NCBI RefSeq assembly: GCF_001894865.1
Contig: NZ_BCXA01000061.1
Span: 1 to 34,472, forward strand
DNA length: 34,472 bases
DNA from: Rhodococcus maanshanensis NBRC 100610
Lineage (GTDB): Bacteria; Actinomycetota; Actinomycetes; Mycobacteriales; Mycobacteriaceae
Direction: 5' to 3'
A program made the translations under genes and the position numbers. Each line of letters opens with the position of its first letter. Within the stretch, counting starts at the first letter, position 1. This document shows positions 1-3,680 of the stretch, piece by piece. The notes below the pieces were generated by a model. The model did no database searches and had not been told where the DNA came from. It saw only the letters and a list, made by a program, of their open reading frames with translations.

Positions 1-85
1 AGGAGTCCCGACCGCCGCCGATCTGCGGGCCGCACTGCTCCCCCTGTGCGGACCCGGGGATTCACACCCGCTCGAAAACGGGTAA
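1..85 (+). CDS. C-terminal end of probable thioredoxin-family protein (partial)
   Basis: The reading frame beginning at base 2 is open into the window and stops with TAA at 83-85. The visible 27 residues include GVPTAADLRAAL, which resembles the last helix of actinobacterial thioredoxin-fold proteins, where a 'G-V-P' turn precedes a leucine/alanine-rich helix. In related genomes a thioredoxin gene sits just before the DUF4395-cysA2-sseC cluster, so position supports the call. The stop codon overlaps the -10 box of the next promoter. No catalytic CxxC is visible because the gene is cut by the window edge, so the identification rests on context and a short tail. Confidence 0.4.
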   Translation, partial: GVPTAADLRAALLPLCGPGDSHPLENG

Positions 86-88
86 GCT
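61..88 (+). promoter_or_regulatory. promoter of the sulfur operon, leaderless type
   Basis: A -35-like TTCACA (61-66) is followed after 16 bp by TAAGCT (83-88), which fits the actinobacterial TANNNT -10 consensus. Seven bases downstream is GTG at 96, the proposed transcription start and start codon of the cysteine-rich leader ORF. The promoter lies inside the last codons of the upstream gene. Confidence 0.6.
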
Positions 89-95
89 GCTCCTC

Positions 96-182
96 GTGCA
101 AACCAGCCAGGAGCTCATGCTCACCCGACGCCGCACAGTTGATCTGTGCCGCCTCGGCGGTTGTTGCTGTACCTGCTGCTGA
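96..182 (+). CDS. leaderless poly-cysteine leader peptide (28 aa), cysteine-responsive attenuator uORF
   Basis: GTG at 96 starts a 28-codon ORF ending in TGA at 180-182. Six of its last eleven codons are cysteine: C18, C23-C24-C25, C27 and C28. The centre reads TRRRTVDLCRLGG. There is no Shine-Dalgarno sequence before the GTG, and the TAAGCT -10 box 7 nt upstream predicts an mRNA beginning at the start codon. Leaderless poly-cysteine short ORFs upstream of sulfur genes are known in mycobacteria as cysteine-responsive attenuators: ribosomes pausing at Cys codons change the leader structure and raise expression downstream. The genes here (DUF4395, rhodanese, SseC) are the kind controlled that way. 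An internal ATG at 117 with AGGAG 3 nt before it is an alternative start that keeps all cysteines. Confidence 0.75.
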   Translation: MQTSQELMLTRRRTVDLCRLGGCCCTCC

Positions 183-312
183 TTACACGGCTGACGTTCT
201 CCGCTCATCCGGCACCTTCTGCCTGAGCATCGCGCCGTGATCGCAATCCGGAATACCCGCGGTTCATCTCCGCACGTCAAGGCATCCGTTTCAAGCGCAG
301 GAGCTCTCTCCC
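183..312 (+). promoter_or_regulatory. structured leader between the poly-Cys uORF and DUF4395
   Basis: Bases 186-191 (CACGGC) can pair with 234-239 (GCCGTG), enclosing an inner bulged hairpin of 203-207 and 211-214 with 220-223 and 224-228. The outer stem begins 4 nt after the uORF stop, so a ribosome at the Cys codons or stop would be expected to block it. The DUF4395 Shine-Dalgarno AGGAG is at 299-303. No U-run typical of an intrinsic terminator is present, so control is more likely at translation or by Rho. The pairing was done by eye and the mechanism is inferred. Confidence 0.4.
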
Positions 313-798
313 ATGTCCACCTCCACCACCTCCCGGTCCCGCACCGGTAGTGCCGACCAGGTCGATGTCCGCGGTCCGCGGTTCGCGGCCTGGATCACCA
401 CCGGTGTCCTCGTGGCCGTGCTCGTGCTGTCGACGTTCTCCCTGGTCGCGGCCGGCCTGCTGCTCGCGGCGCAGGCCGTGGTCTTCGGGCTCGGCGCGGC
501 CCGCGGCCCCCGCAACAGCCCGTACGGTCAGCTGTTCGCCCGGTTCGTCGCACCGCGGCTGTCCCCGGTCACCGAGCGTGAGCCGGTCGCCCCGCTGCGG
601 TTCGCCCAGCTCGTCGGGCTCGCCTTCGCCGTCGTCGGCGTGATCGGCTTCCTCACCGGCCTCACGGTCATCGGCACCGTGGCCACCGGGTTCGCCCTCT
701 TCGCCGCGCTGCTGAACGCGGCCTTCGCGTTCTGCCTCGGCTGCCAGATCTACCCGCTCGTGGCCCGCTTCCGCAGGTCGACCTCGATCGCGGTCTAG
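313..798 (+). CDS. DUF4395 family membrane protein
   Basis: This 161-aa protein has the DUF4395 layout: a short polar N-terminus, a hydrophobic pair at about residues 28-65, a polar stretch with the family-like 'RFVAPRLSP' segment near 75-85, and a second hydrophobic pair at about 97-145. A C-L-G-C motif at about residues 141-144, at the end of the last membrane segment, could be redox active. The family is often found beside thioredoxins and sulfurtransferases, and its biochemical role is unknown. The ATG at 313 is preceded by AGGAG at 299-303 with 9 nt spacing. It is the first large gene after the poly-Cys leader and lies 45 nt before the rhodanese gene, so cysteine-dependent control of the operon is inferred to start here. 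Confidence 0.8.
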   Translation: MSTSTTSRSRTGSADQVDVRGPRFAAWITTGVLVAVLVLSTFSLVAAGLLLAAQAVVFGLGAARGPRNSPYGQLFARFVAPRLSPVTEREPVAPLRFAQLVGLAFAVVGVIGFLTGLTVIGTVATGFALFAALLNAAFAFCLGCQIYPLVARFRRSTSIAV

Positions 799-843
799 GC
801 CGCACCACCTCATACCCACGCAAGAAGTATCGAAAGGAAAACC

Positions 844-1677
844 ATGGCTCGCTCCGACGTCCTGGTCTCTGCCGACTGGGCCGAGCAGAACCTCACCGCA
901 CCGAAGACGGTCTTCGTCGAGGTCGACGAAGACACCTCGGCCTACGACGGTGGCCACATCGAGGGTGCTGTCCGGCTCGACTGGCGCAAGGACCTGCAGG
1001 ACGGCGTCCGTCGTGACTTCCTCAACCGCGAGCAGTTCTCCGCGCTGCTGTCCGCCAAGGGCATCGCCAACGACGACACCGTCGTCCTCTACGGCGGCAA
1101 CAACAACTGGTTCGCCGCGTACGCGTACTGGTACTTCAAGCTGTACGGCCACCAGGACATCAAGCTGATCGACGGCGGCCGCAAGAAGTGGGAGCTCGAC
1201 GGCCGCCCGCTGTCGAAGGACGAGGTCGTCCGCCCGGCCACCACCTACCAGGCCGGCGAGCCGGACACCTCCATCCGCGCCTTCCGCGACGAGGTCATCA
1301 ACGCCATCGGCAACAAGAACCTGGTCGACGTGCGGTCGCCCGACGAGTTCTCCGGCAAGATCCTCGCGCCCGCGCACCTCCCGCAGGAGCAGGCGCAGCA
1401 GCGTGGCCACGTCCCCGGCGCCATCAACATCCCGTGGAGCACCACCGCCAACGAGGACGGCACCTTCAAGTCCGACGAGGACCTGACGAAGCTCTACGCC
1501 GAGAAGGGCTTCGACGAGAGCAAGGAAACGATCGCCTACTGCCGCATCGGCGAGCGCTCGAGCCACACCTGGTTCGTGCTGCAGGAGATCCTCGGTAAGA
1601 ACAATGTCAAGAACTACGACGGCAGCTGGGTTGAGTACGGCTCCCTCGTGGGTGCACCGATCGAGTTGGGAGCCTAG
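844..1677 (+). CDS. cysA2: thiosulfate sulfurtransferase (two-domain rhodanese, CysA2/SseA type)
   Basis: The 277-aa protein has two rhodanese domains. The N-terminal one (about 1-125) lacks an active cysteine. The C-terminal one (about 140-275) carries the active loop CRIGERS with the persulfide-forming cysteine at about residue 233. Rhodaneses transfer sulfane sulfur from thiosulfate or similar donors to thiophilic acceptors. Length and motifs match mycobacterial CysA2/CysA3, which despite the name are not sulfate transporters. The start ATG at 844 follows an AAAGGAAA ribosome site. The stop at 1675-1677 is 2 nt before the next ATG, so the two genes are co-translated. It lies in the cysteine-attenuator operon, consistent with a role in sulfur supply. 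Confidence 0.93.
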
Positions 1678-1679
1678 TT

Positions 1680-2483
1680 ATGTGTGGAGCACCTGTTCAG
1701 GGCCAGACCCTGCCCGCGGGCGTGGACGTCGAGAAGGAGACCGTCATCACCGGCCGCGTGCTGGCCGCTGACGGCCAGCCGGTCGGCGGCGCGTTCGTCC
1801 GCCTGCTCGACGGCACCGGCGAGTTCACCGCCGAGGTCGTGGCCTCGGGCACCGGCGACTTCCGGTTCTTCGCCGCCGCCGAGGAGCGCGCGAAGGAAAC
1901 CAGCGCGCGCAACATCCCGGTGTTGCCCGGCCTCCCCATCCCCGAGGACACCGCCAACCTGCGGCTCGGCCCCGACCTGAACCCCGGCATGCTCGCGCTG
2001 CTCCCCCTGGTCGGCGTCTGGCGCGGCGAGGGCGAGGCCAACAACCCGACCGACGGCGAGTACCGCTTCGGTCAGCAGATCGTGGTCTCGCACGACGGCG
2101 GCAACTACCTGCACTGGGATTCGCAGACCTGGGTCCTAGACGCCGACGGCGAGTACGTCCGGCCGGACCTGCGCGAGAGCGGATACTGGCGCGTCGCGGG
2201 AGACGGCATCCCGGGAAGCATCGACGAGGAGACCGTCGAGCTGCTGCTCACGCACAGCTCCGGGGTCGTCGAGTTGTACTACGGCCAGGCGCTGACCCAG
2301 TCCAGCTGGGAGCTCGCGACCGACGTGGTCATCCGCAGCAAGCAGGGCGCCCTCGTCGGCGGCGCCAAGCGCCTGTACGGCATCATCGAGGGCGGCGACC
2401 TCGCCTACGTCGAGGAGCGCATCCTCGCCGACGGTCCGCTGAAGCCGCACCTCTCGGCCCGCCTCTCCCGATACATCGGCTAG
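1680..2483 (+). CDS. SseC (DUF1416) N-terminal half fused in frame to a nitrobindin/FABP-like heme-binding protein
   Basis: One 267-aa ORF combines two proteins that are separate neighbours in related genomes. Residues 1-66 follow SseC/DUF1416 closely ([49 protein letters not shown]). SseC normally continues for about 33 residues, starting with a PGxWTLR segment, but that part is absent. From about residue 67 ([14 protein letters not shown]) the sequence is the FABP/nitrobindin family, a ten-stranded barrel with G-x-W-x-G-x-G (GVWRGEGE, about 112-119) and a C-terminal His ([12 protein letters not shown]) in the position of the heme-ligating His of mycobacterial nitrobindin. The junction lies in a GCC-GCC-GCC run (1872-1880). 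Nitrobindins bind ferric heme and isomerise peroxynitrite; SseC has a poorly defined sulfur-linked role. The fusion may be real or a sequence or assembly deletion. Confidence 0.85.
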
Positions 2484-2500
2484 CAGCGGCTTCGCCGCCC

Positions 2501-2542
2501 GTGCGCGATCGATACCCCAGCTGGGGTGAAGTTCGCTCACAG
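2501..2542. repeat. left copy of 42-bp palindromic repeat flanking the AbiEi-like gene
   Basis: The copy begins GTGCGCGATCGATACCCC and ends GGGGTGAAGTTCGCTCACAG. It differs from the copy at 3652-3693 at 6 of 42 positions. Within the unit ACCCC pairs with GGGGT around a 4-nt centre, and the outer arms are also roughly complementary, so it can form a stem-loop. It begins 17 bp after the SseC-nitrobindin stop codon. Confidence 0.75.
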
Positions 2543-2639
2543 TCCTGGTCGTGCACAGGAGTGAATTCATCCACAGCCAGGCCTCGTGGTGCGGTGTCGC
2601 CCAGCCACGCTGTCACTGGTCCGGGCAACCGTCCGTTGC

Positions 2640-3680
2640 ATGACCGATCCCACCCAACCTGCACTGCGACAACTACTCGACGCTCAACACGGAGTCCTGT
2701 CAGCCACCCAGGCCTGCGCGCATGGCTACACCCGCAAACACGTCCAGTACCTCGTGGAGTCGGGCCAGTGGCAGCGCCTCCTGTTTGGTGTCTACGCGGT
2801 CACCACCGGTCCCCTGTCCAGACCGATGTCGCTGCGCGCGGCACTGCTCTATGGGGGCGGCGCGGCGATCCTCAGCCATGACACCGCGGCCGAGGAATGG
2901 GGCCTTCTGCCCATCTCCCCCGATTCACCAACGCACATCACCGTGCCCTACGGGCGCTCCGCCCATCATCAGTCGACCACCGCAATTCGACGTCCGACCC
3001 GCCCACACGAGCCTGTTCCGCGAACCGGCGACACACTGCATCCTGGCGTGGTCGTGCACCGTTCCAGGGCCTACGACCACATCTCGGTTCCGACCGATCC
3101 GCCCCGTACCTCCCTCGCCGACACCGCGATCGACCTCGCTGTGGCTCAGCCCACCGCCCGGCAGGCCTACGGATCCGTCATCGCCAGCGTCACCAATGGC
3201 GGAATCCAGCTGTCCCGTTTGCGATCCCGGATCGCTGAACGCAAACCGCGACGGTTCAACCGCGCGATCGACGACGCATGCGTGGCGATCGCCGGCGGGA
3301 TCCAGTCGGTGCTCGAGTCCCACTACGCCGTCGACGTCGAGCAGGCACACGGACTTCCCGACGCGACGCGCCAAGGCCCGGTGATCGTCGATGGAGTGAC
3401 GCTCTACGAAGACGTCACATACTCCCTATCCGGGATGGACACGGTTGTTCGCCTCGACGGACACAAGTGGCATTCATCGCGAAAGGTGCGCCGCCGCGAT
3501 CGTCGCCGCACGAACGCGGCGACCCTTGCCGGGACGGACCAGCTCATCTACGGCTGGGAAGAGGTGACCGACGACCCCTGTGTCGTGGCCGGTGAGGTGC
3601 GCACGGTGCTCGAACGCAGCGGGTGGCGGGGCACCAACCCCTGCCCGAACTGTGCGCGATCGGTACCCCTGGTGGGGTGA
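2640..3680 (+). CDS. AbiEi-type antitoxin wHTH domain protein with C-terminal DUF559-like nuclease fold
   Basis: The protein starting MTDPTQPALRQLL has 346 residues. Residues about 5-50 (LSATQACAHGYTRKHVQYL, then WQRLLFGVYAV) match the winged-helix domain of type IV AbiEi antitoxins, followed by the common 'SHDTAAEEWGL' segment. The C-terminal part (about 230-335) has the DUF559/Vsr-like layout: HGLP, a YEDVTY aspartate, LDGHKWH, RDRRRTNAA and QLIYGWEEV. At the place where relatives have V-E-L-D-G, this copy has V-R-L-D-G, so a probable catalytic Glu is replaced by Arg. No AbiEii toxin gene is adjacent. Its last nine codons and stop lie inside the right-hand 42-bp repeat. Codons are somewhat less GC-biased than in its neighbours. 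ATG 2640 was chosen because the domain begins there. An accessory, possibly mobile, origin is inferred. Confidence 0.75.
   Translation: MTDPTQPALRQLLDAQHGVLSATQACAHGYTRKHVQYLVESGQWQRLLFGVYAVTTGPLSRPMSLRAALLYGGGAAILSHDTAAEEWGLLPISPDSPTHITVPYGRSAHHQSTTAIRRPTRPHEPVPRTGDTLHPGVVVHRSRAYDHISVPTDPPRTSLADTAIDLAVAQPTARQAYGSVIASVTNGGIQLSRLRSRIAERKPRRFNRAIDDACVAIAGGIQSVLESHYAVDVEQAHGLPDATRQGPVIVDGVTLYEDVTYSLSGMDTVVRLDGHKWHSSRKVRRRDRRRTNAATLAGTDQLIYGWEEVTDDPCVVAGEVRTVLERSGWRGTNPCPNCARSVPLVG

Follow-up and report, generated by a model that had tools for sequence, protein, structure and literature searches.

A conserved, leaderless-looking cysteine-codon leader upstream of the DUF4395-rhodanese-SseC operon in Rhodococcus, a probable counterpart of the mycobacterial switch

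Across the mycobacteria, a small ORF with a C-terminal cysteine cluster lies upstream of cysA2/Msmeg_5788 and is occupied by ribosomes, according to the accessible part of Shell et al. 2015 (PMC4633059). Leader peptides of cys genes with runs of cysteine and no terminator are described in Seliverstov et al. 2005, the available portion of which gives conserved terminator hairpins as absent from the cysteine leaders and suggests Rho in their place (PMC1262725). A review, summarising Canestrari et al. 2020, reports in the excerpt available that attenuation in M. smegmatis operates via contiguous cysteine codons (PMC9031893), and a 2026 paper citing the same work names the process translation attenuation in the passage available (PMC13236596). 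Two more distant systems resemble these leaders, as far as the extracts of their sources describe them. The LEU element of actinobacterial leuA has a run of regulatory codons that is proposed to pair with the Shine-Dalgarno (SD) box of the gene under its control, but it involves leucine and a pseudoknot (PMC1262725). The upstream ORF (uORF) uORFC-8-2, which precedes cysS in Rhodobacterales, has conserved cysteine codons and is proposed to act by attenuation, but it has two such codons and an intrinsic terminator, belongs to another phylum and is transcriptional (PMC8632094). In the open-licence literature, a set outside which the key mycobacterial study lies, no description of a Rhodococcus form of the leader was found, nor a paper related to peptide letters of the RRxVDLxR type, nor one treating DUF4395, DUF1416, SseC and rhodanese together with Rhodococcus. 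Because a leader at the same locus has already been described in mycobacteria, the novelty of the present one is lower than a preliminary description of this DNA had estimated.

The window, the whole stretch of DNA analysed here, comprises 34,472 nucleotides and is contig C61 of a 5.67-Mb Rhodococcus genome; all of its features described below lie on the forward strand. The nearest named relative among the fetched loci is Rhodococcus oryzae, in which DUF4395 is 97% identical and the aligned operon exhibits 95-96% DNA identity. A uORF of 28 codons occupies 96..182, from a GTG start codon at 96-98 to a TGA stop codon at 180-182, and encodes the leaderless-looking, cysteine-rich peptide MQTSQELMLTRRRTVDLCRLGGCCCTCC, which has six cysteines within its final 11 residues. 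The Cys tract, codons 23-28 (162..179), reads C C C T C C and is the proposed sensor and the proposed strand antisense to the downstream ribosome-binding site (RBS). A density of at least six cysteines in 11 codons is reached by a single reading segment when the window is read in all six frames; 40 dinucleotide shuffles of the window produced no such segment. Domain searches place three genes downstream: the DUF4395 protein as the first structural gene (313..798; PF14340, 3e-41); a rhodanese, or thiosulfate sulfurtransferase (844..1677; PF00581, 4e-35), which we take from its position to be CysA2-like; and a gene (1680..2483) that combines an SseC-type DUF1416 domain (profile positions 1-65 of 97) with a nitrobindin-like THAP4 heme-binding domain. 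The preliminary description had placed promoter-like boxes, the GTG at 96, a 28-codon ORF with six cysteines and a complementarity of 186-191 to 234-239 in front of a sulfur-transfer operon; all of these positions can be read from the letters, and the nature of the operon is confirmed by the domain searches.

As in Ms5788A-type leaders, the uORF is the first ORF before a rhodanese/SseC operon and its run of Cys codons lies just before the stop codon. It matches the NCBIfam model NF042933 (Ms5788A family Cys-rich leader peptide) with 38.2 bits and an E-value of 8e-10, under the cut-off of 45. Among 10 homologues, the six mycobacterial sequences score 48.5-57.5 bits and the four from Rhodococcus/Nocardia 34.4-40.7, and as these four all lie under the cut-off, the shortfall is common to the clade. 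The uORF is therefore called a positional orthologue, likely to work like Ms5788A, rather than a certified member of NF042933. A kinship with mycobacterial uORFs had been suggested beforehand, and it is supported both by this match and by the common peptide core LTxRRxVDLCR. NF042934 (putative leader peptide), a family with the same RRxVDLxR...C motif, is matched by the ORF with 27.7 bits, above its cut-off of 27, and with 25.9 bits, under the cut-off, in the genome scan; nine of the ten homologues pass, and L032 scores 26.3 bits. An Rfam search of window positions 1-2600 returned a single match, at E 0.57 and far under the gathering score, and no family was assigned.

The uORF shares with the Ms5788A/cysA2 leader (Msmeg_5788, Rv0815c) the peptide core, the terminal cysteine run and a GTG start without an SD motif, and the homologous mycobacterial loci have the same DUF4395-rhodanese-SseC gene order. 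The Rhodococcus/Nocardia form differs in its terminus, which is mostly CRLG(G/A)CCC followed by one non-cysteine residue and then C. The window also has a longer spacer after the uORF, 130 nt as against 66-107 nt in 57 leaders of the other group, its RBS reads GCGCAGG in place of the ACAACAACAGG-like letters of mycobacteria, and the post-stop stem of the Rhodococcus/Nocardia form is absent from those 57 leaders.

Conservation was examined in 81 loci, comprising the best 80 of 198 DUF4395-encoding genome loci and the window. A uORF with a cysteine run and a GTG start is present up to 1,200 nt upstream of DUF4395 in 76 of the 81 loci, yielding 67 distinct uORF sequences with 5 to 9 cysteines each; these sequences are related, so that counts across leaders do not represent independent events. 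The frame and its Cys codons are thus conserved in relatives, as expected of the element first proposed, and cysteine sensing is supported as the likely input. In the five uORF-less loci (L017, L020, L025, L083 and L086) a thioredoxin-like gene directly precedes DUF4395, and no rhodanese was recognised after DUF4395, both as read by eye; the leader therefore appears to follow the sulfurtransferase operon rather than DUF4395. Of the 76 uORF loci, 71 contain a rhodanese-like ORF identified by motif pattern. At an E-value of 0.001, NF042933 matches 269 of the 298 genomes sampled in the order (83 above the curated cut-off) and 66 of its 76 sampled genera, and none of 14 control genomes; in the subset of match neighbourhoods that was read by eye, the next gene is mostly DUF4395 or rhodanese. 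The poly-cysteine leader of mycobacteria thus has a place before this operon in Rhodococcus and Nocardia too, and most of the genomes sampled from the order contain model matches to such leaders. Judged from these comparisons of sequence, the uORF is a genuine, conserved and leaderless-looking Cys-codon leader that is ordinary as a kind and constitutes the Rhodococcus counterpart of the mycobacterial switch.

Upstream of the uORF, a putative -35 box, TTCACA (61..66), and a putative -10 box, TAAGCT (83..88), are separated by a 16-nt spacer, and TAAGCT ends 7 nt before the GTG. A TANNNT box ending 6-8 nt before the GTG is present in 75 of the 76 homologous leaders (exactly 7 nt in 68), compared with 3.5 of 76 expected from shuffling. 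All 67 distinct uORFs begin with GTG, and an SD-like purine motif is found before the uORF in only 5 of 76 leaders but before DUF4395 in all 76. The spacing of the box and the missing SD motif are strong signs, short of proof, of leaderless initiation, and they favour the leaderless-looking character ascribed to the uORF at the outset. The -35 box is a reading of the letters, is weak and has different letters in mycobacterial loci, and a generic sigma-70 scan of positions 1-400 reported no promoter, TTCACA included, so that the promoter claim depends on the conserved TANNNT box. The TAA of the putative -10 box also ends a reading frame at 2-85 that resembles, by eye, the C-terminus of the thioredoxin-like proteins preceding DUF4395 in the uORF-less relatives, and the box would therefore overlap the stop codon of that gene.

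Two hairpins lie within the uORF: H2, GAGC-N4-GCTC, at 111..122 (codons 6-9), and H3, GCACAG-UUGAU-CUGUGC, at 133..149 (codons 13-18), which contains the first Cys codon (codon 18, 147..149; TGC in 66 and TGT in one of the 67 distinct uORFs). All four pairs of H2 are present in 65 of 67 distinct uORFs, compared with 9.8 expected, and all six pairs of H3 in 66 of 67, compared with 8.7 expected. The expectation was obtained from 1,000 draws in which the peptide was fixed and synonymous codons followed the usage of the downstream genes, with maxima of 22 for H2 and 19 for H3; the draws ignore kinship, so that the contrast is overstated. The third positions of the H3 loop (codons 15 and 16) vary, whereas those of the stem hardly do, and inspection of H2 and H3 for two-sided compensating changes revealed none, only swaps among G-C, G-U and A-U pairs. 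Both hairpins thus seem to be kept by codon choice. Among leaders of other families, 20 of 25 have a complete H3, as do all 13 parsed leaders of the f15 set, and H2, complete in none of the 25 and none of the 13, was rejected as a family-wide element. Codon choice is also distinctive at cysteine: TGT accounts for 236 of 462 Cys codons in the uORFs but for 7% in the downstream genes, where TGC makes up 93%, and codon 25 (168-170 in the window) is TGT in 65 of the 67 distinct uORFs. Pairing is the sole explanation that can be offered for this preference.

In the minimum-energy fold, the end of the Cys tract (169..182) pairs with 291..304, a segment that includes the DUF4395 SD sequence AGGAG at 299-303; the pairing letters are CCUGCUGCUGA against UCAAGCGCAGG. 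The Cys tract, from codon 23 to the stop codon, was subjected to duplex analysis against the RBS and against other windows of the same leader. The RBS falls within the best 5% of Cys-tract partners in 52 of the 76 leaders, the window included, as against about 4 by chance, and within the best 2% in 47; in the remaining 24 it lies outside the best 5%. For the window, the duplex has a predicted energy of -14.5 kcal/mol, compared with a mean of -6.9, and a rank of 0.007. The complementarity is reached with different letters in Rhodococcus and in mycobacteria, several of which pair CUGUUGUUGU against ACAACAACAG. Cognate duplexes have a mean of -14.9 kcal/mol and non-cognate duplexes of -13.4, and as a partner swap costs only 1.5 kcal/mol, the specificity of the tract for its RBS is modest. 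Eleven mycobacterial loci keep the uORF together with an AGGAG..GTG ribosome site (L030, L031, L038, L053, L058, L059, L060, L067, L078, L087 and L088), and the RBS is within the best 5% of Cys-tract partners in none of them; a different read-out and a wrong start are candidate readings. An unusually long leader of 264 nt is present in L069, at about 2198-2461, and carries repeated CGAACGCACAGTCC-like and GTTCGAGAA-like units before DUF4395.

Averaged over the 76 leaders, the predicted cost of RBS opening falls from 8.16 to 6.41 kcal/mol when the Cys codons are masked by a gap the size of a ribosome. The cost is more than 0.5 kcal/mol lower in 48 leaders and more than 0.5 kcal/mol higher, the wrong way, in 18. 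With the gap moved to codon 10 the mean cost stays at 8.15 kcal/mol; with the gap at the stop codon it is 6.46 kcal/mol, so close to the value for the Cys codons that folding alone cannot tell a starved from a fed ribosome. Opening energy was preferred to the probability that the SD sequence is unpaired because the SD sequence has local alternative pairings; the unpaired probability rises from a mean of 0.25 to 0.31 with the gap on the Cys codons and is higher in 54 of the 76 leaders. For the window alone, the opening cost changes from 7.9 to 7.2 kcal/mol and the unpaired probability from 0.21 to 0.22, a small predicted change that arises because GGAG can pair with CUCC just downstream. Support for the attenuation model is therefore weak from the fold of the window itself and better from the family as a whole.

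Immediately after the uORF, CACGGC at 186-191 and GCCGTG at 234-239 are exact complements, and they form the core of a stem whose 5' arm is 181..191 (181-183 and 186-191) and whose 3' arm is 234..242. In the ribosome-free leader its bases are predicted to pair with probabilities of 0.14-0.16; a ribosome positioned on the Cys codons raises these to 0.80-0.91, and one positioned on the stop codon reduces them to 0. Nine aligned, hand-picked Rhodococcus leaders all possess, by eye, an equivalent stem of the form GAU(C)..CAC/GUG..(G)AUC, and a pattern count recovers these same nine, out of 22 leaders of the Rhodococcus/Nocardia group, and none of 57 others; the stem was accordingly rejected as a general element. 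The preliminary description had assigned a switch of the leader fold to this stem. Its predicted dependence on ribosome position stands, with one correction: the DUF4395 RBS seems to be what the Cys codons chiefly pair with, and the stem a competitor in one Rhodococcus group. The stem shares bases with the tract:RBS helix at the stop-codon end of the latter and so may serve as an alternative partner in that group.

The 28-codon ORF is best explained as a cysteine-sensing leader that acts by translation attenuation, a reading to which we assign a probability of roughly 0.7. Transcription would start at or beside the GTG at 96, and ribosomes would load directly on the 5' end. With ample Cys-tRNA, the ribosome would pass through and the Cys tract (169-182) would pair with the DUF4395 RBS (291-304), damping translation. 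With scarce Cys-tRNA, the ribosome would halt on the Cys tract and sequester the anti-RBS strand, the post-stop stem (181-191/234-242) would form, the RBS would become more open and DUF4395, rhodanese and SseC would be made; both the stalling and the direction of the response are inferred. Stalled ribosomes were reportedly found by Canestrari and colleagues in 2020 to block structures that hide the RBS. The result is a testable account in which a single codon stretch would be both the sensor and the antisense strand to the gene controlled.

The same ribosome at the Cys codons could instead decide a Rho- or terminator-dependent stop of transcription within the 183-312 leader. Rho has been suggested for the mycobacterial cys leaders on account of the absent terminator hairpin, in the portion of Seliverstov et al. 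available (PMC1262725), and the untranslated stretch that follows the uORF is long, at 130 nt. However, an intrinsic-terminator-like site between the uORF and the gene start is present in none of the 76 leaders, the longest T run of this interval in the window is 3, and the leader lacks the intrinsic terminator by which a classical transcription attenuator is defined; a terminator-like match at 147-159 lies inside the uORF and was rejected as a leader terminator. Transcriptional attenuation also has no need of the complementarity between the Cys tract and the RBS, and it is considered improbable. The conserved peptide would suit a small cysteine-rich protein that binds metal or thiols and acts in trans with no cis regulator, yet the position before the operon is conserved, the peptides carry anywhere from 5 to 9 cysteines, the tract complements the RBS and related leaders stand in front of other sulfur-type genes, all of which makes such a protein very hard to credit. 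A chance or artefactual reading with no functional uORF has a negligible probability, being contradicted by the conservation of the GTG, the TANNNT spacing, the hairpin codon choice and the cysteine run, and by model matches in 66 of 76 genera of the order.

Translation attenuation is compatible with a contribution of the nascent peptide, in which a programmed stall would be caused jointly by RRxVDLxR, while it occupies the exit tunnel, and by at least one Cys codon, and the poly-cysteine run would only sharpen that stall. M1 (the start), L9, T10, R12, R13, V15, D16, L17, C18, R19 and C25 are invariant in the 76 aligned peptides, and the invariance of R12, R13, V15, D16, L17 and R19 poses the direct question of whether the RNA hairpin, the nascent peptide or both are under conservation. 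From 24 further loci, 17 leaders were read that keep RR[H/A][VI]DLxR, and the other seven gave none by pattern. In 12 of the 17 a single cysteine is present in the last 18 residues, and 16 of the 17 are of the RRH type, where the window uORF reads RRT; both features set these NF042934-type leaders apart from the present one. The 16 RRH leaders have one to three cysteines in the last 18 residues, form 0-3 of the 6 H3 pairs and vary in their Arg, Asp and Leu codons, and the motif appears to be maintained in them as peptide, without H3. Most of them were collected with a model of the same motif and by motif parsing, so that the presence of the motif is circular but the codon variation is not. This circularity and the seven loci without a leader count against nascent-peptide arrest, as does the RNA-level constraint on the same codons in Ms5788A-type leaders, and we regard arrest as possible but doubtful. 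A composite sensor, in which the RRxVDLxR nascent peptide is a cysteine-dependent arrest peptide of an actinobacterial sulfur-leader family and the Ms5788A codons serve in addition as hairpins and anti-RBS, is an unlikely extension; in it H3, whose end would lie roughly at the rear edge of a ribosome stopped on the Cys tract, could re-form behind that ribosome and hold the stall. Of all the observations, the sharing of RRxVDLxR with leaders of one to three cysteines has the poorest explanation and the greatest interest.

Four of the 17 further leaders lie in the source genome, with downstream genes named by eye. The RRHVDLKRVCSC leader of L010 (C17 2047-2097, forward strand) precedes a sulfite/nitrite-reductase-like gene and probably corresponds to the nirA leader already published. 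L002 (C54 44978-45031, reverse strand) is a RRHVDLLRVAAALC leader with one cysteine, located before an SsuD-like alkanesulfonate monooxygenase. L007 (C12 116918-116965, forward strand) and L008 (119004-119051, reverse strand) both read RRHVDLCR and lie on opposite strands with about 2 kb between them; they precede luciferase-like and flavin-reductase-like genes. Opposite-strand pairs of leader-model matches, with gaps of 73-85 bases, are present in G068 C53, G023 C57, G117 C104 and G110 C85, and represent either divergent genes, each with a leader, or a single sequence recognised by the model in both orientations; leader parsing of four stretches (L200-L203) from three of the opposite-strand pair sites found none.

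An anomaly in the operon is the joined gene at 1680-2483, the sole DUF1416 match in the genome, which had at first been described as an unusual SseC-nitrobindin fusion under the control of the leader. Comparison with the closely related L016 (95-96% DNA identity), which possesses a separate SseC of 101 aa, reveals a 426-bp in-frame deletion in the window between two copies of GCCGCC; the loss eliminates the intergenic stretch and fuses SseC, at about residue 67, with the nitrobindin-like domain. By start pattern, SseC is 100 or 101 aa in 60 of 61 loci, the window being the exception, and the pattern gave nothing in 15 of the 76. A full-length match to a query spanning the junction was found, among 21 genomes, in the window's own genome only. 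The deletion may be real or may reflect an assembly error. The fusion was therefore rejected as a feature of the operon, since the deletion is seen in one assembly only and the genes of L016 are separate, and it provides no basis for claims on operon control. The 5'UTR of Rv0813c contains a small transmembrane ORF that is conserved in Rhodococcus aetherivorans, according to the part of the source available (PMC11133741). About 100 bases 3' of the operon and on the same strand, an ORF at 2586-3680 encodes an AbiEi_4-like domain (PF13338).
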